24,762 nucleotides of DNA from positions 1-24,762 of the IMG/VR virus record IMGVR_UViG_3300018876_000094; one strand, written 5' to 3'. The notes under the pieces were generated by a model that saw nothing but the letters and a program-made list of their open reading frames with translations, searched no databases and was not told where the DNA came from. This stretch comes from a virus. This document shows, in pieces, positions 414 through 24,033 of this stretch. Numbering within the stretch: position 1 is the first letter of the stretch; every line of letters begins with the position of its first letter. A program made the position numbers and the translations under genes.

Positions 414-1535
414 ATGAGTTACTCTAATTATGAGCAAACCGTTATTATAAATGGTCATAAATTGAATGGCGTTCAAGATGTTGATGGAAGTTATGGAATC
501 AGCGAAAAACCTGTTAATGTAGCTGGCGTTGGCTTTATCGACGCTCTTCCCAATAGCCCTCTTGAGGGAAATTTCTCCATCTCAAGAAAGATGGTTGGAA
601 AAGATCCATTTTTGAATACAAATTCTGTGGGAAAATATGATTTCGATGAACAGGAAATTAGCGGAGCGATTTTGTACGACAGTAATACGAAAGGGTTTGG
701 GTTTACTAAAGCAAGGGTTTCTAGATATTCAGTGAATTGTGCTGCAGGATCAATCCCTGATACACAAGTAGATATTAAAGTATATGGTAATCTTGGTAGT
801 AATGTTTTGAAAGTTGATCCTTATGCTGTTAATACTTCTAGTGAATATTATCCTTTTGATGGAGATTATGTATATTATACAAATGTTCAAGGGCAAGTGC
901 TTGATCAAGAGGGTTCAGCAAATTTGAAAGATCAATGGAATACCGCTTCGTTGAAGTTATCGGATTTTACATACAATAGTTTGAACGCAAGAACTAGAAC
1001 CATTGATGATGGAGATGTATTGGCATTGGGCAAGGATGCATTTATTATGAATGGATACGCGAACTTGATAACCGAGCAAGAACCAGAAGTACAATACCCA
1101 GATCAATCAAGCATCAAGATAAAGGTAAGTGATTTTGATATTGATGCCGTTAGTGATTTTAGTTTTTCTAGAACAGTAAATTTACAACCTGTATATGCAA
1201 TACCAAAAGGTCAAGGTGATGAATTGATCGCGCAAAATTTAGATCCAGTTCAGGTTGACACACAATATCCAATAGAAACTGATATTAATTTTACGATTAT
1301 TGCTGATCAATATGAAATTCGAGAGATAAAAGATCGATTGCAATCTGCGCCAAGAAGTTCTGTTGAAATAGAAATATTGGATGCTCAAGATCAAAACAAT
1401 ATAATAAATAGCTTTACGGGCTACAATGTGAGATTAATAAGTGAAAGCATCAATGGCTCTATCAATGAAGAAATGAGCGTATCTTTGACCTTCAAGGGTT
1501 ATGAGTCATTGCATAATCAATTTTATATATCATGA
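414..1535 (+). CDS. Tail protein with two tube-like beta domains (paralogue of the next gene)
   Basis: 373 residues with no signal peptide or membrane segment and no named family that I recognise. It reads as two beta-rich halves (about 8-127 and 231-366). Each has a strand with the pattern S.SR.. or ISRK, a loop, and a closing strand resembling tail-tube or distal-tail barrels. The pattern NTNSVGKYDF near residue 69 is matched by NTNQVGRYFF in the next protein, so the two are paralogues. Between the halves lies a separate module (about 150-218: WNTASLKL, then LGKDAF and GYANL) that recurs in the gpI-gpJ fusion. Its place between the tape measure and the M-like gene suggests an extra ring at the tube end; this is inference. 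The stop overlaps the next start as ATGA. Alternatives are a generic virion structural or adaptor protein. Confidence 0.6.
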   Translation: MSYSNYEQTVIINGHKLNGVQDVDGSYGISEKPVNVAGVGFIDALPNSPLEGNFSISRKMVGKDPFLNTNSVGKYDFDEQEISGAILYDSNTKGFGFTKARVSRYSVNCAAGSIPDTQVDIKVYGNLGSNVLKVDPYAVNTSSEYYPFDGDYVYYTNVQGQVLDQEGSANLKDQWNTASLKLSDFTYNSLNARTRTIDDGDVLALGKDAFIMNGYANLITEQEPEVQYPDQSSIKIKVSDFDIDAVSDFSFSRTVNLQPVYAIPKGQGDELIAQNLDPVQVDTQYPIETDINFTIIADQYEIREIKDRLQSAPRSSVEIEILDAQDQNNIINSFTGYNVRLISESINGSINEEMSVSLTFKGYESLHNQFYIS

Positions 1536-2449
1536 GTTCTCCTTTTTTAAGATTCGAAAATGGAAAAATTTCTTTAGACAATAAAGATCTGATGGTCAAG
1601 TCTGCTAATTTATCTATAGCTCCATCACTAAATGTAGAAAGAGTTTATGGAGATTATGACCCTTCAATTTCTGGCGCCAAAACAGAATTTGTTAATTTCT
1701 CTCCAATTCAAAATCTAAAGGGCAAGTTGGAAATCAGTTTTTACATATCAGCAGAAACATTCGCGAAAAATGGAACTCCTAATAATATAGATAGATTGTT
1801 CGATATCAAAAAAGGTATGAGCGAAAATCCCATCAATACAAATCAAGTGGGAAGATATTTTTTTGACAACATGTATTTGAATTCCTTTAATTTTAGATTA
1901 TCTCCATTTCAATTGATTGAAGCAAGTGCGAGTTATGATATATATGGAACAATAAGAAAAGAAACAAATTACTTTTTCAGAAAAACAGAAGTTGATTTTG
2001 CGCATTCATTGAAATCGTTTGGGGAAATGAAAGCTAGCGGTTCATCCGCCGATAATGCTATTGATTCTCAATTTGAAATATCCTCCTTGGCTTATTCAGT
2101 AGTGGTAAACAGAAAAATACATAATAATATTCGAGCATCCGAGCACACCTCTGTTAATACTCGAGCCGAAGGCGTATTGCCTGTTCGAGTTTCGGTGGAA
2201 ACTATTGAGTCTGAGATGACCATCGAGGCGAATGATATGATACCCAATCTTAATAGTTATGGGGATCAACAAAATTCTTTTTCTCCTGAAGGAATTCAAG
2301 ATTCTGAAATATTTGCTAATTTGTATTCTGTTCAAGGAGTAAAACTTGCAACCTTTTCAACCAAAGGCAAAATACAATCTCAATCTATGTCGATATCTGA
2401 AAATTCTTACGCAAAGAGTAATATAAGTATCAAGCAAATAATAAAATAA
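1532..2449 (+). CDS. Tail protein with two tube-like beta domains (paralogue of the preceding gene)
   Basis: 305 residues, overlapping its upstream neighbour by ATGA and its downstream neighbour by TAATG, which indicates translational coupling. The N-terminal half (about 18-140) carries the NTNQVGRYFFDN element seen as NTNSVGKYDFDE in the upstream protein, followed by a strand ending in IYG, matching VYG there. The C-terminal half (about 183-303) resembles a second copy of the same fold, with a V.VNRKI strand, a VLPVRVSVETIESEMTIEA strand pair, and a final Q..SISENSYAKSNISI edge. It lacks the inserted WN..SLKL module of its neighbour. Probable role is a structural ring at the tail end, inferred from synteny with the tape measure and M-like genes. 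I do not recognise a database family. Confidence 0.6.
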   Translation: MSSPFLRFENGKISLDNKDLMVKSANLSIAPSLNVERVYGDYDPSISGAKTEFVNFSPIQNLKGKLEISFYISAETFAKNGTPNNIDRLFDIKKGMSENPINTNQVGRYFFDNMYLNSFNFRLSPFQLIEASASYDIYGTIRKETNYFFRKTEVDFAHSLKSFGEMKASGSSADNAIDSQFEISSLAYSVVVNRKIHNNIRASEHTSVNTRAEGVLPVRVSVETIESEMTIEANDMIPNLNSYGDQQNSFSPEGIQDSEIFANLYSVQGVKLATFSTKGKIQSQSMSISENSYAKSNISIKQIIK

Positions 2450-5400
2450 TGAGCCAGCAGAAAATATATCTATCGCAAGAACCTACTCATATTTCTAATT
2501 ATCAGGGTATATTTCAAACTGGAGAAAATTATCAGAAATTTGATTTTGTTTACAACACAGGGGATGGCAGGTTTTATTATGCTCGAGATGATGTAAATAA
2601 TAGCCAGTCGGTTATTTCTGGGGAATATCGATTTACACTAGATGATGTGGGGCCAAGTAATGGTGGAATTGAAACATATTATATATACGACGAATGGAAC
2701 AACTCTGACGAATTGCAAGAAGGGCAAAGGATAAGTCTTCAAGGCTCGACAGTTGGTTCAGACGGATTATATAAAATATTGTCTATAGAAAAAGATTTTG
2801 AGGAAATCAATCACTCTAGCCAAGCTTATGATTTTAATCAAGTTTTTGACGCAAATCATATTACATTAAGTTGGTATCAATCTAGTTGGTTTTTTCGGCC
2901 AAATCTTGGAGAGGATTCTATTCTTGATTACTCAGCTTTTAGTAGAGATGGTGATTCATCGTGGATTTATAATACTTTGTTTGGTTTTATTTTTGTAAGC
3001 TTGATAGAAGATGGAGAGCAAAATTTTTGGTTTCATTCTGATTTAGCGCAAGGTTTGTGGTTTTATGCAGATAAGGCAGTACTTGGTAATTTGAATGATC
3101 AAAGAAACAGCTTTCTATATTTAGAAAATAGATCAAGTTCGCCAAGCAAGGCTGGTTCAAATTCATGGCTTCATTGGAGGAATGACCCTCAAGGTAATTA
3201 TAAGGCTTTGTTTTATAATTATACTGATCTTCAGTGGTTTGGATTTAATTCATTTAATGAAATTCAAAAAATTGATGCTCCAGATTTATCGATAATAAAT
3301 GCTCCTGAAGAAAGTGTTGCTTCTTTGAATAATAATGGAAAGAATACAAGAATAAGAATTCAGCCAGTAAATGAATCTTATCAAATAAACTCTTATGAAA
3401 CCAGGTCAAGTAATAATATTATTTTATCTGGAATTCTTGTTGATCCTTCTGATGATTCTGATTTGTGGTCAAAAGATAGATTCTTTTTTGATTCTGACTA
3501 TGGAGCAATTGTAAATTATAAAGCTAATAACTATAAATATCAATACGGAAATGGTTATTATGTTGTTCACCCAAAGAATATTAATAGTTTAACGTTTGAA
3601 GCGAATCTAAAATTTAAAAATAGAACAAATCGAGAAGCAAATGCGATTATACATTTTTTAGAAAATCATCAAGGACAAGATGCAAAAGATAAGCCTCTTT
3701 CTTATTTAAAATATAGTCAAGGTATTTCTGGTTTCAATTGGGACGGAGCTTCTTCTTTTCATCCATATGATTCTCTTGACATTCAAACCAAGAAATTTTA
3801 TTGTCAAGATTTTTCTCACTCGCTTAATTTCGAAGATAGCAATGATGTTTTGGTAAAATTAAGGAACTTGGATACATCTATATTGCAAAAAAATGATTCT
3901 CTTTTTGTTGCTAGTGCCCCCACTTACTCTGAAGATGATTATTACGAAAAAAACGATGTAGTTTTTTATACTGGAAATAATCAATATTATTATTTTCATA
4001 GCGGAGAGGGTCAAGCTCAGGGATTGCCTCCTGTTGAAATGCATCAAGAATGGACTAGAGAATTAGGCAATTTCTCACATATAAATACAGGGCAATGGAC
4101 TAGAGATTTTATGTGGAAACCATCTTTGGGATTAACTGTATCTCAGAATCCCAGACTGCAAGAGATTTCCCTTGGGGCGGGTTATACTCAGATTTATCAA
4201 GACGGAATCAATGAAAGTTTATTGACTTTAGAGGTTCAGTTTAATAATAGAGATGATAGTGAGGCTTATGCTATACTGCATTTTCTTGAGCAGCATTACG
4301 GATGTATACCTTTTATGTTTTCTGCTCCAGCCCCATATGAAGCTCCTCACAATTTTGTATGTCAAGAATGGCAGCATATATACAATTACAAAAATAATCA
4401 TAGCATAAGGGCTAGATTCGAGCAGTATGCTATTGATTTAAATAGCGATAAAATTATAGACAATGAAACTCCAGCTTCTCAAGCTCGCGCGGAAATTATA
4501 GTCAATAAAACAATAAACTTCTCAAGCAGAGACGACGAAGAACTAATTGAATCCTTGGGTGAAAAGGGGTACATAAGGAAGCAGGTAAATCTTAAGAATA
4601 TTGGTGATTTAAGTGCAGAAATCAATCTAATATCTACCGATTCACTTAACGATGAATATCATATTCTTGGGCAAAATGATTTTGGGTCGAATTATTGTCC
4701 ACAAGGTTTTTCTAGAGAAGATTCTATGACTGATAGTCAAATATCTGATATATATTTATCTATCATGGGCGAGGCGATGCTGGATTCATATTATATCGAC
4801 AAGTCTAATGAACAGCAATGGAGGGTTGCTGATTTAGTGATCGCGATTTTAAATAGTCAAGATTTCTTATTAAAGAGTCCAACGAGTAAAGATATACAAA
4901 TTATTTATCAAGACTTGATCGGGGAAACACCAACTCAATCAATTATAAATTCTCTTTTAAATGAATCCAGTTTAAATGAAGTAAGGCTAACAATCGAGTC
5001 TTCTGATGTTAGGGCTAATTTTTTAAGAAATAATCCGAAGGTAATCACTCAAAAAATAACAGGAACTGACAGAAAAATATGCATTCCTGATAATAAATTA
5101 TCTGACATAGGATTGAATGGAATGCAGATTCAATTGAAGAAAAGAACTTTAAACGGCAGAGGATTTAAAGTTATATCTACAAATGAAAATTATTTTCAAA
5201 ATAATCAAGGTATAATTATTCAAGAATCTAGTGGTCGATCTTTAGAATCTATTGATTTATATTTTGTCGATCAAAGAGTATTTGAGCTTTATTCTACTAA
5301 CATTATAAGAGGAGGGGAAGAGGGATATATTGATTTATATTTTCAGATTAAAGCTCAAGCAGATAGTTTTTTAACTGACTCTGCGGGTAATGAAATATCT

Positions 5401-8022
5401 TGGACAGATTCTTTTGGACGAGAAAAGGGTTATATAAAAATAGGTCGGGGAATAAATTCTGTAGAAGGTAATTTATATATAGAATCCCAAGGCGATTCAT
5501 TGGTATCAAGCCTTAATGCTTGGGTGAAATTTAATGACGAAACTATACAAGAAGAAGAAGAGATTTCTCCATGGTCTTACGAGAACGTTATAAATGCTCC
5601 ATTTTTATTTTTGAACACACCTGGTTTTTATATCAATAATACAGAATTGCAACCTTCTGAGAATCGGGCTAGAGCAGTTATAGGATTTGAAATTGGACAA
5701 CAAGATTTCAAAAAACTTGTTGGTTTGTGGGTTCCGTATGAAATTAAAGCTTATTCCGAGAATGGAGATTATGAATCTTACGTCGACTCTCAAGAAGGAG
5801 TTCTTGAGCTTTACGAAAATTATGTTGCTTCTGCAGGAGCATATCCTAAACCTAAGAAATTGTGGGGGTTAAATTATTGGTTTGAAAACGGAAAAGATCA
5901 AGGGCATACCCTTCCTCTGAGCGATGATAAATCTTCTATTGTTTTACCGAGAGGTTCATCTTATTACAATTCTTTAGATGATGATAGCGTAATTTTTCAA
6001 ACTTCTTCGCATTATTATGATTCAATAGAAAAAGATTTTTCAAGCAAGCCTTTAAAGTTTAACACTCAAAATATATCCTCTGCAAATACCGAAGATCATA
6101 CATTGATAGAAGTTAGAGAAATACCTCAAGCTGAACTTCCTAATGGTTATACTAAGGGTTACGCACAGAGAGGTTTAACTAAAATTACATCTAGAGTTCT
6201 AAATTCTTCTTTTATAGAATCATTTATTGATAGTGATTCTCAATTCTTGTTTGCGGAAATATTATGTTGGCTTGATAATTCAGTAGAAAGTTGCGGTAAT
6301 ATTGAGTTTTCTGTTTTAAATTCTATATCAGAATATGGTATAGTAAAAGCCAGTAATAATAGATATAATGTTGTAAAAAAAGCTTACGCTGTGTCTGGTC
6401 AGATATACGATATGGTTGAAAATTCATCTATAGGCTTTGATAAAATTATCCTTCTGGGTCAAGGAGGTTATCATTTAGAGTCATTTAGTAGAAATTTATG
6501 GGATAAACGTGAAATATTTATCGAACAATCAGTCTTCGATGAAGCTATGAATCCGCTAAGTTTAGAAGAGATAGAGCAAGTTGATTACAGAATTACTATA
6601 GGATCTGATGTTTTAGCTTATACAATTAGGGATGAAAATGTATTGTATATAACTAAAGGAATAATAGAATTAACGGAGATAGATGTATCTACAGGTTGGA
6701 CTTTATCTAATGCTGAATATGAATGGAATAAAATTATTAATCCTACATTTGGCGAAAGTAAGGTAAAGAAAATGGTTTATGAAAATCAATCGTGTTTAAA
6801 GGCTTGGGCGCATGTTCTTGATCGTACAAGTTTTAATATCGTATCTGACATATATAAAAGCACATACCCAGAATTAAATTCCGAGTATTATTCACTTCAA
6901 AAATCTTCGCTACCTCAAATACTAAATAAAGGATTAGAGGTTGATATTGATTTTAAAACAGAACTTAGTGAAGATCATAAAAAGGAAATACAAGATGCGG
7001 TTTCAACTTTAGAGTCTATTGTTCAAGATGAATTTTCCATAAATCTTACAGTTCTAGAAGATCACCATGGTCGTCTAGGCTCTAGTATTGAGAGTCAGAA
7101 TGTAGTTAAGATTACCCATACAGAAAAAGAATTTTTAAATAAAGGTCTTGCTCATTTAGATAGATCTAATTTTGTAAAATTATATGTTGGTGGATTTGAG
7201 TCTTATGTTATTCCTGATGATAATTATTTTGCGAGAAGAATTTCTGCTGTAATGACTATTGACCCAGAAAAAATAAATAATGCGGAATATAATCAAATTG
7301 TTAATGTTAATTATGATGCTTCACAACATACTCCTGTTTATTATACTGTATTGCATGAATTGATAAATATGCTAGGTGTAGGTTTTCTTTGGTCTCAAAA
7401 TAGAACTTGGTGGAAAGATGATGCGAATGTTGATGCAGCTTATAATTTATCAGAAAATAATTCTTCAGTTTATCAATATATTGGTGATAATGCGGTGCTG
7501 AAGTATCAAGAATTACTTCAATCTTATAGTCAAGAGGGGATTGTTTTTGATGTCAATGATTACGAGAGATATGTTGATGAAAATCCAACTGTTTTGGATG
7601 CTTATAATGCTTACCTGGCTGAAGAATCAGAAGAAGAAAAGCAGTCTAAAATAGAGTGGGGGTTAAATCACTGGAATGCCGAGGGAAGCTCTAATACAGA
7701 ACTTAATATGCCTACTAATAGTCCACTTTCTGATTTTTATAAAGATAAAATTCCTCTGACTGATTCTGGTTTATATTTAAGGTCCGAGGTTCGCAATGTA
7801 TCTAACGAAGGAGTTGATAAAATACAACCAACATTTCCTGGGGAAATAGGTACTGATTTTGGTTTGATAGCTAGGGCTCCAGCAGTTCCTATAATTAATC
7901 AAGGTGCAGCTCTTTCTGAAATATCTATTGGAATGCTAAAAGATTTAGGTTATAATGTTAGTTATGGACCTGCTAGACCAAGTGACGATCAATATCTCCG
8001 GCCTAGTATTAATTTAAAATGA
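2449..8022 (+). CDS. Giant minor tail protein: two gpM-like domains, mixed modules, inactive leishmanolysin-like domain
   Basis: 1857 residues; lambda gpM has only about 109. Parts in order: a WY chitin-binding-like module (22-58); an aromatic Trp/Tyr segment (139-266: SSWIYNTLFGF, NFWFH, LWFYAD); gpM-like domain 1 (340-478: GNGYY, NRTNREANAIIHFLE, FYCQD); a second WY module (494-540); gpM-like domain 2 (548-662: LGAGYTQ, DDSEAYAILHFLE, FVCQEW, RARFEQ); a DUF4214-like helical segment (789-860); beta-rich sequence of unknown type; a WG..YW module (1122-1156); and a C-terminal leishmanolysin-like domain (about 1493-1849) with HELINMLGVGFLW and a terminal KDLGYNVSY. The second His of HExxH is Asn1640 and a second WG..HW module (1705-1755) is inserted, so catalysis is doubtful. 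The position between the double-barrel genes and gpL matches gene M. The gpM call is firm for domain 2 and fair for domain 1. Confidence 0.75.
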   Translation: MSQQKIYLSQEPTHISNYQGIFQTGENYQKFDFVYNTGDGRFYYARDDVNNSQSVISGEYRFTLDDVGPSNGGIETYYIYDEWNNSDELQEGQRISLQGSTVGSDGLYKILSIEKDFEEINHSSQAYDFNQVFDANHITLSWYQSSWFFRPNLGEDSILDYSAFSRDGDSSWIYNTLFGFIFVSLIEDGEQNFWFHSDLAQGLWFYADKAVLGNLNDQRNSFLYLENRSSSPSKAGSNSWLHWRNDPQGNYKALFYNYTDLQWFGFNSFNEIQKIDAPDLSIINAPEESVASLNNNGKNTRIRIQPVNESYQINSYETRSSNNIILSGILVDPSDDSDLWSKDRFFFDSDYGAIVNYKANNYKYQYGNGYYVVHPKNINSLTFEANLKFKNRTNREANAIIHFLENHQGQDAKDKPLSYLKYSQGISGFNWDGASSFHPYDSLDIQTKKFYCQDFSHSLNFEDSNDVLVKLRNLDTSILQKNDSLFVASAPTYSEDDYYEKNDVVFYTGNNQYYYFHSGEGQAQGLPPVEMHQEWTRELGNFSHINTGQWTRDFMWKPSLGLTVSQNPRLQEISLGAGYTQIYQDGINESLLTLEVQFNNRDDSEAYAILHFLEQHYGCIPFMFSAPAPYEAPHNFVCQEWQHIYNYKNNHSIRARFEQYAIDLNSDKIIDNETPASQARAEIIVNKTINFSSRDDEELIESLGEKGYIRKQVNLKNIGDLSAEINLISTDSLNDEYHILGQNDFGSNYCPQGFSREDSMTDSQISDIYLSIMGEAMLDSYYIDKSNEQQWRVADLVIAILNSQDFLLKSPTSKDIQIIYQDLIGETPTQSIINSLLNESSLNEVRLTIESSDVRANFLRNNPKVITQKITGTDRKICIPDNKLSDIGLNGMQIQLKKRTLNGRGFKVISTNENYFQNNQGIIIQESSGRSLESIDLYFVDQRVFELYSTNIIRGGEEGYIDLYFQIKAQADSFLTDSAGNEISWTDSFGREKGYIKIGRGINSVEGNLYIESQGDSLVSSLNAWVKFNDETIQEEEEISPWSYENVINAPFLFLNTPGFYINNTELQPSENRARAVIGFEIGQQDFKKLVGLWVPYEIKAYSENGDYESYVDSQEGVLELYENYVASAGAYPKPKKLWGLNYWFENGKDQGHTLPLSDDKSSIVLPRGSSYYNSLDDDSVIFQTSSHYYDSIEKDFSSKPLKFNTQNISSANTEDHTLIEVREIPQAELPNGYTKGYAQRGLTKITSRVLNSSFIESFIDSDSQFLFAEILCWLDNSVESCGNIEFSVLNSISEYGIVKASNNRYNVVKKAYAVSGQIYDMVENSSIGFDKIILLGQGGYHLESFSRNLWDKREIFIEQSVFDEAMNPLSLEEIEQVDYRITIGSDVLAYTIRDENVLYITKGIIELTEIDVSTGWTLSNAEYEWNKIINPTFGESKVKKMVYENQSCLKAWAHVLDRTSFNIVSDIYKSTYPELNSEYYSLQKSSLPQILNKGLEVDIDFKTELSEDHKKEIQDAVSTLESIVQDEFSINLTVLEDHHGRLGSSIESQNVVKITHTEKEFLNKGLAHLDRSNFVKLYVGGFESYVIPDDNYFARRISAVMTIDPEKINNAEYNQIVNVNYDASQHTPVYYTVLHELINMLGVGFLWSQNRTWWKDDANVDAAYNLSENNSSVYQYIGDNAVLKYQELLQSYSQEGIVFDVNDYERYVDENPTVLDAYNAYLAEESEEEKQSKIEWGLNHWNAEGSSNTELNMPTNSPLSDFYKDKIPLTDSGLYLRSEVRNVSNEGVDKIQPTFPGEIGTDFGLIARAPAVPIINQGAALSEISIGMLKDLGYNVSYGPARPSDDQYLRPSINLK

Positions 8023-9230
8023 GTAAGTCTTCTTCAAATTTAAATAAGCAAGTAATATCTATTACCCCAGATGCTGTTATTGATTTATATGAAATTGATT
8101 TTAGCAATCTGCAGAAAAGCCTTGAGTTTTTAAAGGACGTTTACTCTGTTAACGTGAACGATGAGCCTGTGTATAGATTTTGTCCAATGATCAATGGAAC
8201 AAACCCTTTGGTATGGCAGGGAAATTCTTATCAACCGCTACCAATTAAGATGGAAGGTTTTGAGTATCAGGGGGAAGGTAAATTACCTAGGCCTAAATTA
8301 ACAATAGCTAATCCAGAAGGTTTATTTTCTAAGATATTATATGCCAATCAGGATTTTGTTAATTGCAAGGTTACAAGAAAAAGAACTTTTGCTAGGTTCT
8401 TGGATAATCAAAATTTTGAAGTTTCATCAAGGGGCGTTAATGATCAAAACAGGAATGCTTTTGGGAGGAGTGACGATGCAGCTCATTTTCCTGATGATAT
8501 ATATTTTATAAACCGAAAAACATCTGAAGATAAAAATTCTATTCAATTCGAGCTAGTGTCTGCGCTTGAAATGGAAAATGCTTGGATTCCGGCTAGACCA
8601 ATAATCGCTAACCATTGTGTTTGGACTTATAGATGTGAAATTGGATGTAATTATAAAGGACTTCCTATAGAAACTTTAGAAGGTAAAAATTTAGTTAGAG
8701 ATTTAAAGTATAATTCTAACGCCCAAAATTCTGAATCTTCTGATTTGAATCTTGCTTCATATGGAAAAGTTGACGCTCAGAGATATACTGGCAAGGGACA
8801 ATTGTTGAATGCCGTGCCAGAATGGTATAAATTTGGCCATAGATATGAAGAATCTTTTTCAGGAGGGAATACTATAAGGAATTTTATTAAAGGTACTCAG
8901 GAAAATCCAGAAGGATATTCTACTGGAGATGTTGTTCAGATTATTAATCATAATTCAAGTAACCCTTATCTTAATATTCCACAGGTATTTGTTTGTATAA
9001 AGAGTCATAGAATTGCTAGTGATCATCATCCATTTTTAGACACAGAATATTGGTTAAAAGATGAATGTTCTAAAAGCGTTAGTGCTTGTAAAAAAAGGTT
9101 TGGGAATATTGAAGAATTAAGAGGGTTTAACTCTATAGCTGGAACAAAAAATCCTGAAGCTATAACTCATGAGTCAACAAATCTTCCTTTTGGGGGTTTT
9201 CCTGGTGCAGAAAATAATCCTTTCGTGTGA
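8019..9230 (+). CDS. gpL-like tail tip protein with Fe-S cysteines and a large insertion
   Basis: 403 residues against about 232 for lambda gpL, a tail-tip protein known to coordinate an iron-sulfur cluster through four cysteines. The family signature is clear: HCVWTYRCEIGCNYKG (Cys200, Cys206, Cys210), then DECSKSVSACKKRFG (Cys350, Cys357), then LPFGGFPG (389-396) near the end. Spacing within each pair (10 and 7) resembles lambda, but about 140 residues separate the pairs where lambda has about 22. The insertion includes a WY chitin-binding-like module (298-348: GYSTGDVVQI, QVFVCIKSH, EYWLKD) that runs directly into Cys350. Cys206 is an extra cysteine. The N-terminal part (1-190) is the usual beta domain that packs on the tip. 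The start overlaps the upstream stop as ATGA, and the stop directly abuts the next ATG. High confidence. Confidence 0.92.
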   Translation: MSKSSSNLNKQVISITPDAVIDLYEIDFSNLQKSLEFLKDVYSVNVNDEPVYRFCPMINGTNPLVWQGNSYQPLPIKMEGFEYQGEGKLPRPKLTIANPEGLFSKILYANQDFVNCKVTRKRTFARFLDNQNFEVSSRGVNDQNRNAFGRSDDAAHFPDDIYFINRKTSEDKNSIQFELVSALEMENAWIPARPIIANHCVWTYRCEIGCNYKGLPIETLEGKNLVRDLKYNSNAQNSESSDLNLASYGKVDAQRYTGKGQLLNAVPEWYKFGHRYEESFSGGNTIRNFIKGTQENPEGYSTGDVVQIINHNSSNPYLNIPQVFVCIKSHRIASDHHPFLDTEYWLKDECSKSVSACKKRFGNIEELRGFNSIAGTKNPEAITHESTNLPFGGFPGAENNPFV

Positions 9231-9548
9231 ATGATTTGTGATGATATACTTTCTCAAATAAGATTATATGCTAAGTTGAAACCTAGTGAGGAATCTTGCG
9301 GGGTGATATGCAGGGAAGGATCAAGTTTAAAGTTTTTAGGATGTCAAAATTTAAGCAATTATCCTGAGGTTCACTTTAGGATTAATCCTGAAGTTTTAAT
9401 TGAAAATAATGTCGTATTTATTTATCATTCTCATGTAAATGCCTCATCTTTTCCTTCTCCTTTTGATATAAAAATGTATAAACAATTATGTATTCCTTTT
9501 TTAATTTATAGTTTAAGGGATGATGATTTTTACATATACGAAAAATAA
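9231..9548 (+). CDS. Stand-alone JAMM/MPN metallopeptidase, gpK N-terminal half
   Basis: 105 residues with a complete JAMM zinc motif: Glu21 in PSEESCG, then His66-Ser-His68, seven residues, Ser76, and Asp79 two residues later (HxH-x7-S-x2-D). Lambda gpK joins such a domain to an NlpC/P60 cell-wall peptidase. Here the protein stops right after the JAMM fold (DDDFYIYEK), and no NlpC/P60 sequence follows in any frame of the 24-base gap. The gene lies between L and I-J exactly where K is expected, so a role in tail-tip assembly is likely; the substrate of phage JAMM domains is not settled. The ATG directly follows the gpL TGA, so translation is probably coupled. Catalytic residues are intact, so activity is plausible. 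Confidence 0.9.
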   Translation: MICDDILSQIRLYAKLKPSEESCGVICREGSSLKFLGCQNLSNYPEVHFRINPEVLIENNVVFIYHSHVNASSFPSPFDIKMYKQLCIPFLIYSLRDDDFYIYEK

Positions 9549-9562
9549 GTGTAAAAAGAAAT

Positions 9563-9575
9563 AAGGTTTAAGGTG
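9563..9575 (+). promoter_or_regulatory. Shine-Dalgarno-like AAGG and GTG start of the I-J fusion gene
   Basis: The only real intergenic gap in the operon (9549-9572) holds AAGG at 9563-9566, six bases before a GTG at 9573. A stop at 9552-9554 closes the frame upstream and no ATG lies between, so GTG is the only usable start that keeps the gpI-like N-terminus (MKSIYLHGKLGKQFG). A second AAGG at 9569-9572 touches the start codon and is too close to serve. Confidence 0.6.
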
Positions 9576-15131: not shown

Positions 15132-15132
15132 A

Positions 15133-18100
15133 ATGAAATCAACAGCATTAGGAGTAAAATTTTTGGTTACAGATTTATCTGTAAATTATCAACTTGTTGG
15201 TACTTCAGATAATTATTCTTTTCAATATGATCTTGGTAAAGGTTCTTCTTTAGTTGAGGAGGTTTACGAAGAATATACTCATAGGGTGGATTTAAAGGGA
15301 AATTATGGAAGTTTTAATGTTAGGGTTTTCGCGATAAATGATATAGGTATACGATCACAGTATATAGAGCAAACTATTTCTATATCAGCTCCGGAATTCA
15401 AATCTACATTTTCTTTTAATAATTTAAATAGTATTGTTGATCTTGGTACTGCTAATAATTTAATCGTCTCATCTCCATCTGATCAGGATAATAGTCTTAT
15501 AGTTAATGCTAGTTTTGTTGGAAGAAGCTTATTAATAAATTGGGAACTTATTGCTCCGCCAGGGCACTCAAAGGAGGGGCAGTCTTTATCTAAAGAACTT
15601 TTGAGTGATACATTTTTTGATAAATTTGAGATTACCATAAAAAATGGAGTGGATAGAATATTGATTGATAATGATATTTTAAACAATTCTCAAGGATTGC
15701 AAAATTATCTTTTGACCGATGATGTTGTAGGGGCTTTGTCTGATTATAGAAATTTTTCTTTTGAAATTACTACTCAAGCTTTTAATGATTTGGATCTTGA
15801 TAGACAGTTTGCTATTGAAATAAAATCTTATGATTCTTACGGAAGGAGTTCAATTGCTACAATAAACTGTTCCAATTCTGAGCCTGAAATTTTAAACTTT
15901 ACTGAATCTCTTAATTCTTCCTTGACTAGTTTTTCTTGGATAAATAGTGATGATGATTTTAGTAATGTAGTAGTCAAGTATTTATATGTAAAAAGTAATA
16001 CAATTCTGAGTGATTATACCGATTTGTATAAGAGTGTAGAATACCTTAGTGAGATTGCAAGTGCTCCTGATTATGTAAGCTTAAATAATCATCTTTATCT
16101 TGTTGGTGAAAAATACTTGTATAGTGATGGTAATGTATATCAAGTTATTCAGGAACATACTGCGGATATAAATAAAAATCCATCAAACACTGATTTTTGG
16201 GAAAACTTAGGTCCAAAGATTGAGTTCTTTTATACAGATGAAAATCAAGTTGTTGATGGCTCTTTTAGTTTGAGCCAAGCGTTTGGTTTTGATTATTATT
16301 ATGTTTTTTGCGCTTATGACGAATATGGAATTGGTCCAACTTATAATTTAACTAAACAAGGAATAGAAGTTCAGGGTGATGATGCTATATTAAGCCCCAA
16401 GAATTATGAGCTTAAGGTAGATAATCTTTCCTACAGAGAGAGGCAAGATACAATTGTGTTTAATTGGGATATTCTTGATGCTAATGATGAAGTTGTTGAT
16501 ATCGAACAATTGAAAATTAATAATTCAAATGCAAGCAATGACGTTCTTGGAATTCATGCTTATTTGTATGACGTTAATACTCAAGAACCTGTCTATGTGA
16601 TAACTCCAGGTTTTAATTCTAAAAAGTTAGTGAATTCTGTTGCGGGGGACTCTATTTCTGATGCAGGACTAATTTCCACAAAGATGTTTAATGAATTTGA
16701 ATACACAAGAGAATTAAATAATGCTATATATGGATCAAGTGGTTATCCTGCTAATGCCGATTACTTTGATACAGGAGTTATTTATACTCCTGCAAATGAA
16801 GATTGCGCTTTATCTAGTGGAGATAATTCTTTGCATAAATCAATAATTAATAACTCATATATTTTCCCTTATGTAAAAATAGATTATGAAGAGTGGGATA
16901 GTAATGTAACATATTCTTCTGGTGTTGATACTGTATCTTATGAAGGACAAATATATGTTTTGTCTCAAGATTTTGGCCCTCAGAGCGATATTGTCGAAGG
17001 ATTTTATAATAACAATGATTCTTATTTATCCAATAAATTTGTTGTTGCTCCTGTGCTTAATGAGGTTTCATTGTTTGACAGTGCTCAAGGATATAATCAA
17101 GGAGATTACGTATACTATAATGCTAGACTGTATTTATGCTTGCAGGATCAAGCGCAGGGGAGCTCTGTAATACCTTCTATAGCAAACCCTCTTTATTGGC
17201 AACCAAAATCAATAGGGTCAGATATATCTTTTGCTTTATATAAATCAAAAAATGATGTGCTTGCAGGAAGTCCGCTTTTACCATATCAGGATACGGATAA
17301 TTGGGAATATCAGAATCCCACTAATTGTCCAACTCACTTCTCCCTTTTGATTCCGTCGTACGAACTGGATTTAAATGAATGGGGTACAGGAATTAACTTT
17401 CTTCAAGGACAATATACTGTTTATAAAAATGATTTATGGATTGCTACTGATTCAAGTGGGCCTGATACTGATGTGGGTTTTTTGGAGCCCGATCAAAATT
17501 CTGATTATTGGACTAATACAATAGATGGTGATCAAGATATTAGTACTAATCATTCTTTGGGTGATTTAGTTTATCATAATAATGTAGTTTATAAATGTCT
17601 TGCTGATAGTCCAACTGGAGGACCTTTGTTTGCTGATAGTCTAGAAAAAGATTCCGAGTCTTCTTATATACAGTCTCAATGGCAACCTTTCTGGGAGAGG
17701 AATTTTGATTATATAGATATACCCTTGAAGCATATTGCAATACCTGAAAGCGGGAAAAGAAGTATTGGATTACAAGTTTCACTTTTAGATGTAAATGAAA
17801 ATATTTTATCTTCTGGAAGAATTGATGCGGAAAACCCTGCCCCTTATATTTTATATGATGATTTTAATAATACTGATGGTTTTGTTGATAGTGTCTCTGA
17901 GACTACAAAAGTAAAATTTAATTTTAAATATGCATTAGATTTTCAAGAAAAAACTACGAAAGTGTTTTTGTATAGATCTAGTGTTCAAAATTTTAATATA
18001 ACCGGAAGCGATGGATTGCCTTATTCTAATCTTCCTTCTGAAAGTAATCCAGACTCAACTCTCGCTAAAATTATCATTGGTCAGGGTGATGCATCTTTCG

Positions 18101-21100
18101 GTGAAAATATTACTTTTATTGAAGATTCTCCTCCACTTGCCGTTGTTCCTAATTATGAGAAATATGTTAATGATAATCAAGATATATTTCAGCAATATAT
18201 AATAGAAGATCCAGATCAAAGTAAGGAGGATTGGGGGGCTGATCATTGGTTGAACCAAGGACAGTCGGAAGGTTATGATTTACCTACAAAAAATACAACC
18301 ACAGGTTACTATTATAAAATATTACCTTTTGATGATTTTGGTAGCGGAGTAACGCATACGGTGAGGGAAAGTGGCCGCGAATTAATAAATGTTTTTCCTA
18401 AAGATTTTCATAACAAAAATGAATACGCATCAAATGGCCCCGTTGTTGGCGCAGGTTTAACACTTGCTGAAGGCGCAATTCCTTTTGCTGTTAGGAATTT
18501 ATCTGGTCAAACTGCTTTTGAAAATTTCTTCCTTAGTTGGTCGACAATTGATAATGATATTGACTTTTTTGAAGTTTGGAGTAATAAACCTGGTTATTCA
18601 GAGAATGAATCTCTTGCATTAATAACAGGTAGCGGGTCTTTCACTGGTTTTTTACAGCAAGAAAATAATACTGGATATCGGAGGACAGATGGTGTTATCT
18701 ATAGCGTTGGAGATGTACACCCAAAAGAAGTTGTCGACCAAGCCTGGAGGATTAAAAATGCTGAAAGAATATTTGAAGTGCCTGCTAGTGCTAAATTTAT
18801 AGAAACTGTTTATCCAGGATCCAAAGATGAAACTAGAAATTTTTGGATTAGAGCTGTAGATTTCGCTGGAAATAAAGGTCCTTTTACTGGAGCAGCCTTA
18901 ACTGAAGGGGATAATATTTCTGGATTATCTCTAAGCTTGGAATCGATTAGCGCAACAGATGTGAGTGATTTTGAAATATCTTTGACTGAAAGATTTACTA
19001 ACACTATAGGCCTGGAGCCAAATAATCCTTTTCAAAATAATTCTCCATCAAATGGGCAAATATCTTGGGATGCTCATACTTTATATTTCAGGGGTTCTGA
19101 GATAAATATTTCAGGCAATAATAATGGTCTTGGAGATGGATATGTTTGGTGGCAAACAGGTAATGAATTTTATAACACAGGGATAGAGCATCCAGCTAAT
19201 GTTCAAGATGGAAGTTTTAATGATGGAGACTTTATTATAGCAAGAAGTCGGGGAGGGGTAGCTACTCCTACGTTTAATGTTTTTGCTAACGCTTTAATTG
19301 GTACAGCGAACATAGCAGAAGCTGCAGTGGATAGTGCGAGAATAAAAGATTTAACCGCAGACAAAATACTTGGTGGAACAATATCTGGGCAGGATATAAC
19401 ATTATGGTCTACTTATGGAGAGCAAGGAGCTATAAGAACTAGAGGTTTTTATGGTGTTGATCATGAATATGATAGAAGCGGTTTTTTATTAAGTGGAGAT
19501 GGAACCTTTGCTTTTCAAGCCGGAGATAGTAGTTTATCTTTACAGAATGACACTTTAACACTTGTAGGAAATATAAGACAAAGTGATGTTAAGGATTATG
19601 ATTTTATTGATATTAATGTTGTTCCTGGATATTTTAATTATATAGAAGCAGATGATGGTTTTGTTCTGCAAGATGACTCGTCTGTAGATATTGAGGTTTC
19701 TTTTAGGAACTCTAGACTTGTCGATTTGGATCAAGATAAAGTTTATTTTAAAATGGAGTCTATTGTTGGTGGCCAATCATATAAAGTCTTTGATTATCAA
19801 GAATTAGAATTTAATCAAATTATTAGTGGATTTCAATATCATACATTCACGAGAAAAGAGGATGGCTCTATAGTTGTCAATGCGACATTAAATGGAGGAT
19901 TCTTGGATGCTGAGGATGGATTTCATGATATTATAACAAGCCCTGTTCCTGGCACAACTGGAGACGCTGTAGTTTTATACGTATCAGGAGAATATTCTGC
20001 TTATGAAAAATCTTCAACAATAACAAGAGTTATAGATGGTAAAATAGGGATTGATGGAGAATCAGCAAAAACCGTAAAGCTTGAAGCTACTGATTATTCA
20101 ATTGTATATGACGACAAGGGGCTTTCTCCAGAATTTAAAAGTGGGCCGAATTCTACTCAGATTCAAATCTCTGCAGAAGCTTCTAATTTTTACTCATCTC
20201 CCCAATATCGATTTACGAAAGATGGAGTTGTTTATTCGTGGGGCACAACCAATATTTTTAATTTGGGTGCGCCAGATTCGTGGAGTCAAGGAGCATTTGT
20301 AATAAAAGTAGAAGTTAGAGAGGGTTCCTCTGGAGGTGCATCCGCTTCTGATTCCATTTCAATCATTCGGGTTAAACAGGGAGAAAACGCACTGGCTGGA
20401 GTTTTAACCAATGAGAATCATACCATAAGCGCAAATAAAGATGGAACATATGATGATAATCAATTGGAATTGGCAGGAGGAGAGTTTCATCTATTTTACG
20501 GAGGTGAGAGAATTGAAGCAGGTAATATAACTTTCGGTGGCAATACATCAAAGAATGGTTTATCTATATTGATCGATGACGGCACCTATTCATTAGATGG
20601 AGGTTTATGGAGCACAAACACTGAAACTTTTGATATTACAGCACAATACAATGGAGAAACTATCACGAAGAGATACTCAATCAGTAAAGCTAGACAAGGT
20701 ATCGAAGGAATCAATGCAAAAAGTGTTAGAATCAATGCCGAGTCGCTTGTTTTTAAGAAAGATAAGGATAATGGCTCTATTTCGCCAGAAAGAATAAAAT
20801 TATCCGCAGAAACACAAAATACTTCAAGTTCTAGTGTCACATGGAGTGGATCAGATGAAATTTATATTGATTCATCCGGACAAACAAAAGTTGATTCTCC
20901 TAAAGTCAATGTTTGGGTTGGTCATGCAGATTTATCGACGAATGTAAAAGTTACAATAACTGCAACAATTGATGGGGTATCTGACTCTACAACCCTCATT
21001 CTTGTTGAAGATGGCTCTAATAATGTTCAAGCAGTACTCAGCAACGAATCGCACACACTAACCGAGTCGTCTGATGGAAGTTTTGATCGGTCTGGATCAG

Positions 21101-22347
21101 GTACAGATATTCAAGTTTTTGATGGAAGCAAACCGCTGACCTATACAACTGGAACTTTAGTTGAAGGAAAATTTACAGTGAACGTTTCACGAACTGGTGG
21201 TGTTACTGAAGGTACAGCAGGTTCAAGCGGTGATAAATATACAATTGGGAATCTGAGCGCAGCTACTGGCCCAGGAACATTAACTTTTACAATAACCGCT
21301 AAAAAAGGAAATGGAGAAACTGTAACTATCACCAAGGTCCAAAGTTTTGCTGTTTCAAAATTTGGGGAGGATGGGGATCCAGGCCCCGCAACTCCATATC
21401 GAGGAGATTGGTTAATAAATAAAAACAAGTTATCCGCTGGCCAAGAAATAACGTACGAAAAAAATGACAGTAGAGCAGATATTGTTTTTTATGATGATGG
21501 TAGCTCAGGTAATAAATATTGGATGTGTAATACAACCCATGATGTATCAACAGATACATCTTCATTTGATAAAGCTTTATGGGATACTTTTGGGGTTACA
21601 TTTTCCAGCGTAGCTACTGATTTATTGTTATCTGAAGATGTGGTTGTTACGTCAACTATAACTGTTGGTTCTTCGGATGCAACTCCTCCTTCATATTTTA
21701 AATTTGATGCAGATGCAGGAAGATTAGATATGAGAGGAGCTGTGGTCAATAATACTATAGCCGAGGATGTTGGGTTTAACTTGAGTAGTTTGATCATACC
21801 TGGAAATATTCGAATGTATCCAGGAGAAAAAATAATATACGGAGCTGTTGGAACTACTGATTTTAATGAATATTTAGCTGGACATTATCAGGTTAGACTT
21901 GTTCAGGGTGGTGATCAACAAGTTTTTACAATAGAATCAATAACAAATTCAACAAAGTTGCAAGTCAAAGAGGCTTCATTGTATACTTTTGGCGCAGCTA
22001 CTGCTTATGTAGAAACAGCTGTCGCCACCTTCTTGGGGGGAGGTTATAATAATGAAATCAGTCCGTTTCCTCTTGCTGCAGGAGGGTATCAATCTCTTGC
22101 TTCTTGCGTAGTTGGTGGCGCTTATAATGATATAACTGGAAGATTTTCTTTCATTGGTAATGGTTTTGAAAATGCTTGTGGAGATAATTTCTCTGCTATT
22201 GTTGGGGGTTATCAAAATAAAATGCCAAAAGTTGATTCCGCTAATCAAGGTGCAAATTTTATTGGCGCTGGTCAAAATAATATTATAGATGGCGGCACTA
22301 ATCAAAGTATACTTGGTGGAAGTGATAACCAAATAATAAACAGTTAA
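15133..22347 (+). CDS. Central tail fibre: detached distal part of gpJ with FNIII, WY modules, Ig-like duplicates and beta-helix end
   Basis: 2404 residues, starting one base after the hub stop and continuing J-type architecture. Fibronectin-III-like sandwiches occupy about 1-90 and 1110-1256 (FWIRAVDFAGNKGP), with weaker ones between. Five WY chitin-binding-like modules lie at about 320-360, 585-627, 648-693, 750-796 and 806-855, and a sixth at 2084-2154. A WG..HW module is at 1008-1051. Residues 1388-1480 hold the J/fibre stalk signature (GTANIAEAAVDSARIKDLTA, KILGGTISGQDI, LSGDGTFAFQAGD). Then come two Ig-like types in the order A-B-A'-B' (1644-2076), separated by short Gly-rich collagen-like linkers (e.g. 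GEDGDPGPAT). The last 107 residues are Gly-Gly-x-x-Asn beta-helix repeats (FLGGGYNNEI, VVGGAYNDI, SILGGSDNQI). No S74 domain is attached. Role: trimeric central fibre for receptor contact, by homology to J; receptor unknown. Confidence 0.85.
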   Translation: MKSTALGVKFLVTDLSVNYQLVGTSDNYSFQYDLGKGSSLVEEVYEEYTHRVDLKGNYGSFNVRVFAINDIGIRSQYIEQTISISAPEFKSTFSFNNLNSIVDLGTANNLIVSSPSDQDNSLIVNASFVGRSLLINWELIAPPGHSKEGQSLSKELLSDTFFDKFEITIKNGVDRILIDNDILNNSQGLQNYLLTDDVVGALSDYRNFSFEITTQAFNDLDLDRQFAIEIKSYDSYGRSSIATINCSNSEPEILNFTESLNSSLTSFSWINSDDDFSNVVVKYLYVKSNTILSDYTDLYKSVEYLSEIASAPDYVSLNNHLYLVGEKYLYSDGNVYQVIQEHTADINKNPSNTDFWENLGPKIEFFYTDENQVVDGSFSLSQAFGFDYYYVFCAYDEYGIGPTYNLTKQGIEVQGDDAILSPKNYELKVDNLSYRERQDTIVFNWDILDANDEVVDIEQLKINNSNASNDVLGIHAYLYDVNTQEPVYVITPGFNSKKLVNSVAGDSISDAGLISTKMFNEFEYTRELNNAIYGSSGYPANADYFDTGVIYTPANEDCALSSGDNSLHKSIINNSYIFPYVKIDYEEWDSNVTYSSGVDTVSYEGQIYVLSQDFGPQSDIVEGFYNNNDSYLSNKFVVAPVLNEVSLFDSAQGYNQGDYVYYNARLYLCLQDQAQGSSVIPSIANPLYWQPKSIGSDISFALYKSKNDVLAGSPLLPYQDTDNWEYQNPTNCPTHFSLLIPSYELDLNEWGTGINFLQGQYTVYKNDLWIATDSSGPDTDVGFLEPDQNSDYWTNTIDGDQDISTNHSLGDLVYHNNVVYKCLADSPTGGPLFADSLEKDSESSYIQSQWQPFWERNFDYIDIPLKHIAIPESGKRSIGLQVSLLDVNENILSSGRIDAENPAPYILYDDFNNTDGFVDSVSETTKVKFNFKYALDFQEKTTKVFLYRSSVQNFNITGSDGLPYSNLPSESNPDSTLAKIIIGQGDASFGENITFIEDSPPLAVVPNYEKYVNDNQDIFQQYIIEDPDQSKEDWGADHWLNQGQSEGYDLPTKNTTTGYYYKILPFDDFGSGVTHTVRESGRELINVFPKDFHNKNEYASNGPVVGAGLTLAEGAIPFAVRNLSGQTAFENFFLSWSTIDNDIDFFEVWSNKPGYSENESLALITGSGSFTGFLQQENNTGYRRTDGVIYSVGDVHPKEVVDQAWRIKNAERIFEVPASAKFIETVYPGSKDETRNFWIRAVDFAGNKGPFTGAALTEGDNISGLSLSLESISATDVSDFEISLTERFTNTIGLEPNNPFQNNSPSNGQISWDAHTLYFRGSEINISGNNNGLGDGYVWWQTGNEFYNTGIEHPANVQDGSFNDGDFIIARSRGGVATPTFNVFANALIGTANIAEAAVDSARIKDLTADKILGGTISGQDITLWSTYGEQGAIRTRGFYGVDHEYDRSGFLLSGDGTFAFQAGDSSLSLQNDTLTLVGNIRQSDVKDYDFIDINVVPGYFNYIEADDGFVLQDDSSVDIEVSFRNSRLVDLDQDKVYFKMESIVGGQSYKVFDYQELEFNQIISGFQYHTFTRKEDGSIVVNATLNGGFLDAEDGFHDIITSPVPGTTGDAVVLYVSGEYSAYEKSSTITRVIDGKIGIDGESAKTVKLEATDYSIVYDDKGLSPEFKSGPNSTQIQISAEASNFYSSPQYRFTKDGVVYSWGTTNIFNLGAPDSWSQGAFVIKVEVREGSSGGASASDSISIIRVKQGENALAGVLTNENHTISANKDGTYDDNQLELAGGEFHLFYGGERIEAGNITFGGNTSKNGLSILIDDGTYSLDGGLWSTNTETFDITAQYNGETITKRYSISKARQGIEGINAKSVRINAESLVFKKDKDNGSISPERIKLSAETQNTSSSSVTWSGSDEIYIDSSGQTKVDSPKVNVWVGHADLSTNVKVTITATIDGVSDSTTLILVEDGSNNVQAVLSNESHTLTESSDGSFDRSGSGTDIQVFDGSKPLTYTTGTLVEGKFTVNVSRTGGVTEGTAGSSGDKYTIGNLSAATGPGTLTFTITAKKGNGETVTITKVQSFAVSKFGEDGDPGPATPYRGDWLINKNKLSAGQEITYEKNDSRADIVFYDDGSSGNKYWMCNTTHDVSTDTSSFDKALWDTFGVTFSSVATDLLLSEDVVVTSTITVGSSDATPPSYFKFDADAGRLDMRGAVVNNTIAEDVGFNLSSLIIPGNIRMYPGEKIIYGAVGTTDFNEYLAGHYQVRLVQGGDQQVFTIESITNSTKLQVKEASLYTFGAATAYVETAVATFLGGGYNNEISPFPLAAGGYQSLASCVVGGAYNDITGRFSFIGNGFENACGDNFSAIVGGYQNKMPKVDSANQGANFIGAGQNNIIDGGTNQSILGGSDNQIINS
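20062..21360 (+). repeat. A-B-A'-B' duplication of two Ig-like domain types in the central fibre
   Basis: Type A copies cover about 20062-20373 and 20707-21006 (AKTVKLEATDYSIVY against AKSVRINAESLVFKK, each followed by a Q/K-I-LSAE-type strand). Type B copies cover about 20380-20691 and 21016-21360 (AGVLTNENHTISANKDGTYD against QAVLSNESHTLTESSDGSFD). Short Gly/charged linkers (KQGENA, RQGIEG, VEDGSNN) separate them. The similarity is visible at protein level; the DNA has diverged, so the duplication is not recent. Confidence 0.75.
22024..22344 (+). repeat. Gly-Gly-x-x-Asn beta-helix repeats at the C-terminus of the central fibre
   Basis: About seven turns of 12-17 residues, each built as hydrophobic-x-GG-x-x-N-x-I: FLGGGYNNEI, LAAGGYQSLA, VVGGAYNDI, FIGNGFENAC, AIVGGYQNKM, FIGAGQNNII and SILGGSDNQI. 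Such repeats are known from trimeric adhesin heads and phage fibre tips. The same repeat resumes in the last gene (24035-24190). Confidence 0.75.
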
Positions 22348-22348
22348 A

Positions 22349-22954
22349 ATGGCGGATTTATTGGCGAATGTAGTAAAGGATCCTGATGGAGGATTGTACT
22401 CAGCAAGAGTGTTGGGCTCTCAGGGTCAAGATTGCGCGCTTGATGAAAATAATTATCTTACAAATACATGTTTATTTAGGTCGGATGATCAATCAATAAA
22501 TGATAAAATGATAAAGACTAATGGGTATGGTTATTGGAATAATGCTATAAATGTAGAAGAAATTGATCTTGGATTTGAGAAAGGTGGGTGGGTGTATCAT
22601 CAAAACTTGTATTGGATACACCTTAGTCCTGTTATGCATAGTGATTTAGATACAGTGGATATATGGTTTTATTTTGATAGTAAGAGTGTGGCGGAAATTG
22701 GCCATTTTGGTTGGACTTATTTTAAGAGGTCTAATATCTTAAGACATTGGGCTTTTGAAACTCAATACATAAATAACCACTCTGTGTTAGGAACTTTTTC
22801 TGAGGGCTATGGCGTTTTTTTATGGAGAGATGCTGGTGCTGATTCTGGGTATCATGCATTCATAATAAATGAAAATGGAAATATATTTGTTTCTCAAAAA
22901 TTAAACAACTTGGGGGGTGCACCTGTTTCTTCGATTCAATATTATTCTTTTTAA
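22349..22954 (+). CDS. Small distal fibre-associated protein with aromatic W-Y module
   Basis: 201 residues, starting one base after the central fibre stop and ending two bases before the next gene. No family is recognised. Residues 78-140 carry aromatic repeats: GGWVYHQNLYWIHL, DIWFYFDS, FGWTYFK and HWAFE. This pattern also occurs in the I-J fusion (RQWAFVRNLGWTY) and the giant M-like protein (SSWIYNTLFGF). The N-terminal 50 residues are polar with two cysteines (Cys29, Cys41), and the C-terminal part is beta-rich (YHAFIINENGNIFV). There is no signal peptide or membrane segment. Its place between two fibre genes suggests a fibre component or decoration; the aromatic faces might bind carbohydrate, which is inference. 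Confidence 0.65.
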   Translation: MADLLANVVKDPDGGLYSARVLGSQGQDCALDENNYLTNTCLFRSDDQSINDKMIKTNGYGYWNNAINVEEIDLGFEKGGWVYHQNLYWIHLSPVMHSDLDTVDIWFYFDSKSVAEIGHFGWTYFKRSNILRHWAFETQYINNHSVLGTFSEGYGVFLWRDAGADSGYHAFIINENGNIFVSQKLNNLGGAPVSSIQYYSF

Positions 22955-22956
22955 TA

Positions 22957-24033
22957 ATGGCTTTAGAAAATCCTATATATAGTTCGGCCGTATTGGCTCT
23001 TGCGCAAGCACCACCAAGGGATTCTAGTATTGATTCCTTTAATAGTAATAATTTAATATGTGCGGGGAATCATTGTAAAATTAAGGATAGCAGGAGATGT
23101 ACAATTTTAAATTCAGAAAGTCTTTACTTGCATCAAAAATATAATTCTCATTGCGTGGGAGTAAATTTTCAATTTTATGTCAAGCAAGCATATTATTCTG
23201 GAATAGTTTATAGGGTAGCCTTAAATGAATATTATGAAAATTTAATAACTTCAATCGACGGATCTAATTACATAAAAATAAAAACAAGAAATGGTTGGGT
23301 AAATTTAAAATTACAATATTCTGGAAGTTATTATTATGTAAACTATTACAGTTCTGAGGATTTAGCGAAAGAACGTGCATCTTTATATAATTTTTACTTA
23401 AGCAATACTTTTTATGTAAATTGCAAAAACGGGTTGAGCGTATTGAATGTATATTATTCTGAATGGAGTTCTGGAGAGGTTTATAATTACAGAGACTATG
23501 TTTATTATACTATAAGTGGCGGTGAAGTTGTATTGTTTCAAAGAGGTGGGGCTGCGCCTGGAACTTCTTATAATCCAAGCATTAATGAACCAGATGATGA
23601 ATTGGAAACAATGTATTTTAAGGTGGTACAAAGGAATTTTAATCCCGCTTACTTTAGTAAAAGTATCGAAGTAAGGTATGCGAATGTCATGGAGTCCTGT
23701 GGAGATGTAATTTCAAACAATCTATCAGATATAAGATTGAAAAAAAACAGTTCAATTATTCATCAAGCCCTTGATTCGTTAAAAAAAATAAATCCAGTAA
23801 GTTTTAGTTGGAATGAAAGGCGGGGAGCGTTGAGAGGTAACGATATTGGATTAATAGCACAACAAGTTGAACAATATTTTCCATTAGCATCAAATACTAG
23901 ATCTGATGGTGTAAAATCTATTGATTATAAAAAATTTATACCAATTCTAGTTTCTTGTGTTAAAGAAAAACAGAAAAGAATAAATAAATTAAAAATGCAA
24001 ATCAATCAAATAAAGGATTATATATATGAGTAA
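22957..24033 (+). CDS. Tail fibre protein with WY module and S74 intramolecular chaperone (first of two)
   Basis: 358 residues. Residues 28-70 contain degenerate beta-helix turns rich in Asn and Cys (SNNLICAGNHCKI, RRCTILNSESLYL). The middle is beta-rich and tyrosine-rich; residues 168-222 form a WY chitin-binding-like module (SEWSSGEVYNYRDYVYYTI, then TMYFKVV). Residues 255-358 are an endosialidase-type (S74) C-terminal chaperone: LSDIRLKKN with the Ser257/Lys262 pair at the known five-residue spacing, then FSWNE, NDIGLIAQQVEQ, and a terminal coiled coil. In characterised members this domain trimerises the fibre and then cuts itself off just before the Ser. The stop overlaps the next start by eight bases. 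The chaperone call is firm; the binding target of the fibre is unknown. Confidence 0.88.
   Translation: MALENPIYSSAVLALAQAPPRDSSIDSFNSNNLICAGNHCKIKDSRRCTILNSESLYLHQKYNSHCVGVNFQFYVKQAYYSGIVYRVALNEYYENLITSIDGSNYIKIKTRNGWVNLKLQYSGSYYYVNYYSSEDLAKERASLYNFYLSNTFYVNCKNGLSVLNVYYSEWSSGEVYNYRDYVYYTISGGEVVLFQRGGAAPGTSYNPSINEPDDELETMYFKVVQRNFNPAYFSKSIEVRYANVMESCGDVISNNLSDIRLKKNSSIIHQALDSLKKINPVSFSWNERRGALRGNDIGLIAQQVEQYFPLASNTRSDGVKSIDYKKFIPILVSCVKEKQKRINKLKMQINQIKDYIYE
24012..24028 (+). promoter_or_regulatory. Ribosome binding site of the last fibre gene inside the preceding gene
   Basis: AAAGGA at 24012-24017 lies eight bases before the ATG at 24026, within the last codons of the upstream fibre gene. 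It supports this start and independent or coupled initiation of the second S74 protein. Confidence 0.55.

Follow-up and report, generated by a model that had tools for sequence, protein, structure and literature searches.

Domain modules at fixed sockets in the tail-tip proteins of an uncultured lambda/T5-like siphophage

The tail-tip operon and its modules

We analyzed IMGVR_UViG_3300018876_000094, positions 1 to 24,762 (the window), a 24.8-kb viral contig that carries the tail-tip operon of an uncultured lambda/T5-like siphophage. The genes follow in the order upstream ORF end (probably the tape measure), V1, V2, M (gpM/Dit), L, JAB-domain protein, I-J fusion, J remainder, ORF X and two S74-chaperone fibres. 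The features of interest are listed below with the evidence that assigns them.

414-1535, + strand: V1, likely a T5-type tube-fold tail-tip protein, 373 aa with a 292-aa core (insert-free relatives mostly 292-295 aa; model of the L005 ortholog)
813-1061, + strand: V1 insert at core residue 133, carrying a WN module at 855-1046 (WN HMM 4.5e-27)
1532-2449, + strand: V2, conserved tail-tip protein, here without insert (the relative L014 has HW at core residue ~175)
2449-8022, + strand: M, lambda gpM/Dit-like core enlarged to 1857 aa (Pfam Phage_min_tail 1.5e-23, in two places, 3478-3681 and 4108-4425)
2866-3246, + strand: ARO module, N-terminal socket of M (HMM 3.2e-40)
3892-4098, + strand: CBM5/12-like segment of the M core, moderate (hhalign)
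4717-5022, + strand: DUF4214-like helical module in M (HMM 8.8e-39)
5764-5916, + strand: HW module, copy 1 of M (HMM 5e-15)
7354-7383, + strand: HELINMLGVG site in M, aligned to the HExxH motif of relatives (L007 HELGHVFGLT, L037 HEFGHIFGIT)
7555-7713, + strand: HW module, copy 2 of M, within a protease-like domain (HMM 9e-17)
8019-9230, + strand: gpL (Phage_tail_L, Pfam 1.3e-42), with a CBM-like C-terminal part at about 8880-9053 (hhalign)
9573-15131, + strand: I-J fusion (PHROG central tail fibre J 5.4e-112, tail assembly protein 2.7e-28)
11958-12113, + strand: partial DUF4214-like segment in I-J, weak (0.0029)
13812-14150, + strand: ARO-like module in I-J (4.1e-7 with an I-J-trained HMM)
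14202-14387, + strand: WN module in I-J, directly 3' of the ARO-like module (1.2e-15)
16084-16200, 16894-17025, 17074-17199, 17380-17511 and 17536-17694, + strand: five CBM5/12-like modules in J (module HMM; Pfam CBM_5_12 3.3e-11)
18148-18285, + strand: HW module in J (7.2e-15)
22030-22344, + strand: Gly-Gly-Asn repeat at the J C-terminus, seen in the sequence (resembling stretch in S74b at 24035-24172)
22535-22888, + strand: ARO module, accounting for most of ORF X at 22349-22954 (2.1e-10)

Window V1, V2 and M recur at 100% identity in three further IMG/VR contigs. An assembly artefact was ruled out by this identity of V1 and M and by the finding of the L038-type nested V1 in three contigs. 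About 190 related loci were gathered, falling into 99 species-level clusters, some of them from outside this clade. As V2, ARO, WN and HW had no match among 50,697 phage records (INPHARED), the group has no cultured member there and comes with neither isolate nor host. On a 44-kb contig of the same phage (L209), several genes that look glycosyltransferase-like or sugar-related lie beyond the 3' end of the tail genes and are encoded by the other strand.

The best structural handle on V1 came from the L005 ortholog, whose model (mean pLDDT 80.6) matched T5 tail-tip and tail-tube chains (7qg9, pb6) and T5/DT57C with Foldseek values of 1e-8 to 1e-4. Since the target TM-scores were 0.35-0.54 with high rmsd, a double-domain, T5-type tube protein of the tail tip is the likely but not certain reading of this model. 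In it, HW forms helices between two WN strands. The 83-aa insert of window V1 is missing in about half of the species-level relatives, and ortholog lengths ranged from 292 to 1207 aa among the first relatives. The V1 model and the homology to T5 and lambda make it plausible that the modules point outward on the tail tip.

M agrees in fold with a gpM-sized chain of the lambda tail tip (TMt 0.74). Its length ran from 724 to 1857 aa in the first relatives and reached 2549 aa in L049, where an RCC1-type beta-propeller (Pfam 2.9e-67; L049:2355-10004) stands ahead of the ARO module. Classical relatives have M orthologs of 724-773 aa without insertions, as against 1857 aa in the window. The protease-like domain holds HW in the window and WN instead in L007. 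Because HELINMLGVG lacks the second His of HExxH, the putative enzyme may, to judge from the motif, be inactive in this lineage; L005 has HEMLSMMGLG at this site.

Module families and their distribution

The preliminary description, made from the window's letters, had listed at least six small modules as recurring in different tail proteins. We examined the links with leave-out HMMs. Each was trained on the relatives' copies from a single gene, after removal of the window and its closest kin, and was tested on other genes. A WN model trained on V1 found window I-J (3.6e-9), and an HW model trained on L found both M copies (3.8e-5 and 3.9e-10) as well as J (3.2e-12). ARO models trained on V1 and on M recovered window M (1.3e-15) and ORF X (1.4e-4), respectively, and the aromatic block of I-J was assigned to the M/V1 ARO family at 97% by profile-profile comparison. 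None of the five module HMMs matched reversed or shuffled ORF sets at E<10, and a sliding profile-profile scan of V1, V2, M and L gave the module places probabilities of 85-99.9% against a reversed-control maximum of 7.9%. Three previously unnamed families therefore link genes of the window: WN (V1 and I-J), HW (M twice and J) and ARO (M, ORF X and I-J). PDB sequence searches with HW, WN, ARO and the protease-like domain returned chance-level matches only, and nothing convincing was found for the three families in Pfam, PHROGs or solved structures; they are apparently new.

The remaining candidates fared unevenly. The J protein scored 43.5 bits against Pfam CBM_5_12 (cut-off 26.2), and the J-derived CBM profile linked J to L, with hhalign probabilities of 93% for L residues 276-350 and only 43% for M 476-550. 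The ARO, HW and WN inserts of M had no convincing match to a known CBM. The DUF4214-like module is clear in M, and the L007 copy matches PF13946 (26.5 bits against a cut-off of 23.2 bits, 6.6e-6); the window copy matches the module HMM but no Pfam DUF4214 model at E<1. The I-J copy spans half of the model and reached 0.015 in the leave-out test, so that within the window the link between M and I-J is weak. For the Gly-Gly-Asn repeats, the tail of J scored 22.3 bits against S74b, barely above the shuffles' 95th percentile of 21.9 bits; they are not established as one module and were dropped as a shared insert. Of the six modules first proposed, recurrence thus held for WN, HW, ARO and the CBM-like module of J and L, whereas the DUF4214-like case is weak and that of the repeats did not stand. 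Conserved cores with empty sites in relatives bear out the idea that the modules are inserts, except for the CBM-like copies of L and M, which belong to the conserved core.

All-copy ARO and WN alignments were too diverse for collection scans and close subsets were used instead; where module fragments had been combined with complete V1 proteins, the alignments were faulty and were left out of folding. By contig name, the ARO and WN subsets hit almost only contigs already in the clade, in a pattern search that sees close copies only. A bacterial source of HW was considered and rejected, as its pattern was absent from the genome contig collection and appeared in a single genome among 299 from one bacterial phylum (E 3.3e-4), in a partial match adjoining tail-fibre-like ORFs. 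Outside the tail-tip operon, HW occurs beside virion-like proteins in two relatives (L206:2330-4156 and L207:3316-3993). A long HW subfamily (L005, L150, L014, L148) has a W-DYDxDG-like loop reminiscent of those that bind calcium.

Sockets, nesting and presence/absence between relatives

The inserts sit at a few fixed points of the cores, which we call sockets. All domain-sized V1 inserts mapped in orthologs lie at core residue 133, the exception being a repeat-rich C-terminal extension of ~900 aa in L043 (WNTSNVTDMSYMF-type repeats; L043:2144-5767) that is unlike every other V1. Residue 133 may hold an uninterrupted WN, a WN that encloses HW, ARO, or both ARO and a lipase, or an ARO without WN; the lipase is a GDSL domain within the V1 WN module of L037 (Pfam 4.3e-11; L037:1575-3923). 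Further sockets lie at residue ~175 of V2, ~338 of L (occupied by HW in relatives) and ~136-143, ~567-576 and ~716-748 of M.

The modules are themselves interrupted at near-constant points. In WN the break lies at model positions ~47-60 and is filled by HW in L005 and L150 or by ARO plus the GDSL lipase in L037. In ARO, whose predicted structure is of moderate confidence, it lies at position ~100 of the module model and is filled by HW in L007 and L037 or by WN in L051 and L135. As WN is thus split by ARO and ARO by WN, the nesting is reciprocal. In L036 a 444-aa stretch interrupts ARO, starting after position 63.

Near relatives provide natural pairs. L014 and L125 are 79-91% identical in DNA over the region, and only L014 carries a WN inside ARO, clean and in frame; an HW in V2 of L014 is likewise lacking in L125. 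In the pair L186 and L145, one I-J carries a clean, in-frame HW that the other lacks, and no target duplication was evident at the one clean junction examined. A further difference concerns the reading frame: in L003 (16341-16440) a single base differs from the window and creates an in-frame stop just past the I-J WN; the frame stays open in the window and in L004.

On a V2 tree of 42 species-level clusters, with socket contents simplified before changes were counted, the V1 socket (37 species clusters) underwent at least 10 state changes and the M socket (34) at least 12. WN-with-HW recurs in two clades of this tree and WN-with-ARO in three. Fixed sockets, reciprocal nesting and presence or absence in near relatives together uphold the earlier view that the tail grew by modular accretion of accessory surfaces. 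In the copy trees, the long HW subfamily (88% aLRT) takes in copies of seven phages from V1, V2 and M. ARO copies mostly group by gene, with 3 gene-label changes, which suggests that moves across genes may be rare. Among these, the V1 ARO of L035 groups with M-type ARO.

Origin and meaning of the modules

We consider it probable that the modules are accessory domains on tail-tip loops that are gained, lost and exchanged in frame at sockets, mostly by exchange among relatives. Permissive loops in the conserved cores of V1, V2, gpM/Dit, gpL, I-J and J would serve as sockets, and so would one or two loops of the modules themselves. The cargo would be likely binding-type domains (WN, HW, ARO, CBM, DUF4214) or enzymes (GDSL lipase, metalloprotease-like). 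For the most part, co-infecting relatives would swap loaded and empty alleles through homologous recombination within the conserved flanks, and rarer illegitimate recombination would place a module into a new gene or into another module. Selection may favour a changed contact with the host envelope or glycans, or their digestion, as for evolved Dit. By analogy with evolved Dit and with the 936 phages that bear CBMs on several tail proteins, adding host-surface contacts or local enzymes would be the most likely role of the modules, and a small domain set shared by a few fixed loops suggests a plug-in arrangement for contact with the host.

The preliminary description had instead favoured transfer within the genome, with modules duplicating between the tail genes of one phage. 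Several genes of one genome do hold the same families, and the window's M has a 42-nt stretch at 71% common to its two HW copies, the best case in a window that holds no recent DNA duplicate of any module. The nearest copies, however, are almost always found in other phages or near-identical relatives. The best match was the same gene of another phage for 18 of 41 HW, 20 of 25 ARO and 11 of 18 WN copies, and another gene of another phage for 15 of 41 HW copies; only 2 of 84 copies matched best to another gene of the same phage. Of three label-permutation tests, the one for HW gave a weak within-phage cross-gene excess (4 of 19, where 0.94 would be expected; P=0.024) and those for WN and ARO gave no excess. 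Within-phage cross-gene identity peaked at 46%, below the 53% seen between phages. Nearest copies in other phages and the lack of recent duplicates in the window favour exchange among relatives with rare relocation, and the proposed mechanism of intragenomic transfer now appears unlikely.

An equally doubtful account posits a module-rich ancestor with most sockets filled, followed mainly by losses in lineages. It gains from the frequent clustering of copies at one socket, as with ARO by gene, and from the L125 case, in which a module kept in the more distant L015 is missing, which fits loss in L125. It does not sit well with a socket that holds different modules in different phages, with nested combinations that recur in separate clades, or with the grouping of the L035 V1 ARO among M-type copies.

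Somewhat less probable still is that the clade keeps private coding cassettes, which move as units, in frame, into defined sockets, nest reciprocally and have a dedicated mechanism; such cassettes would in effect be mobile protein domains on the virion. It is very improbable that the modules travel as in-frame coding cassettes by means of a mobile element or site-specific system of their own, for although fixed insertion points and reciprocal nesting recall transposition into transposons, the one clean junction examined had no evident target duplication and no nuclease or recombinase was noted in the inserts read.

The modules and their sockets can be set beside known systems. Rickettsia palindromic elements are short coding pieces inserted in frame in unrelated proteins; insertion is in frame here too, but the modules belong to conserved families whose folds are predicted. 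That tail proteins can bear accessory domains is in itself already known. The closest cases are the evolved Dit proteins and the CBM-decorated 936 phages of lactococci. Evolved Dit inserts with carbohydrate-binding domains restore adsorption to, and infection of, EPS-positive lactococci (PMC10688798). As described there and in a report on 936 phages (PMC6669499), evolved Dit of lactococcal 936/skunaviruses resembles the present case in that a domain is inserted into the Dit ring protein and is variably present among relatives. Its counterpart here is gpM, the lambda Dit-like protein. Different are the several unrelated modules in several genes, the reciprocal nesting, the lambda/T5-like tail, the uncultured clade and binding that is only putative. 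The 936 report places BppA-like CBMs in Dit, a major tail protein extension and the neck passage structure, so that, as here, CBM-type accessory modules decorate several structural proteins of one group; there the tail protein extension arises by programmed frameshift, and module-in-module nesting is not described in the parts of that report consulted (PMC6669499). In T5/DT57C, the tail tube protein has an Ig-like domain placed after its tube domain (PMC10713586); like V1, whose core matches T5 chains, it is a tube-fold tail protein with a protruding accessory domain, whereas the V1 insert is internal and lies at a shared socket.

What is new compared with evolved Dit and, as far as the consulted parts of the 936 report go, with 936 phages is that unrelated modules are common to several structural proteins and nested reciprocally at near-constant points (PMC10688798, PMC6669499). 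Mosaicism at the level of domains thus reaches inside the structural proteins of the tail tip and is not confined to fibre ends. The comparison yields three domain families that match neither Pfam nor PHROGs, sockets at fixed positions and natural pairs with and without a module, which make it testable how phages add surfaces to their tails without breaking assembly.
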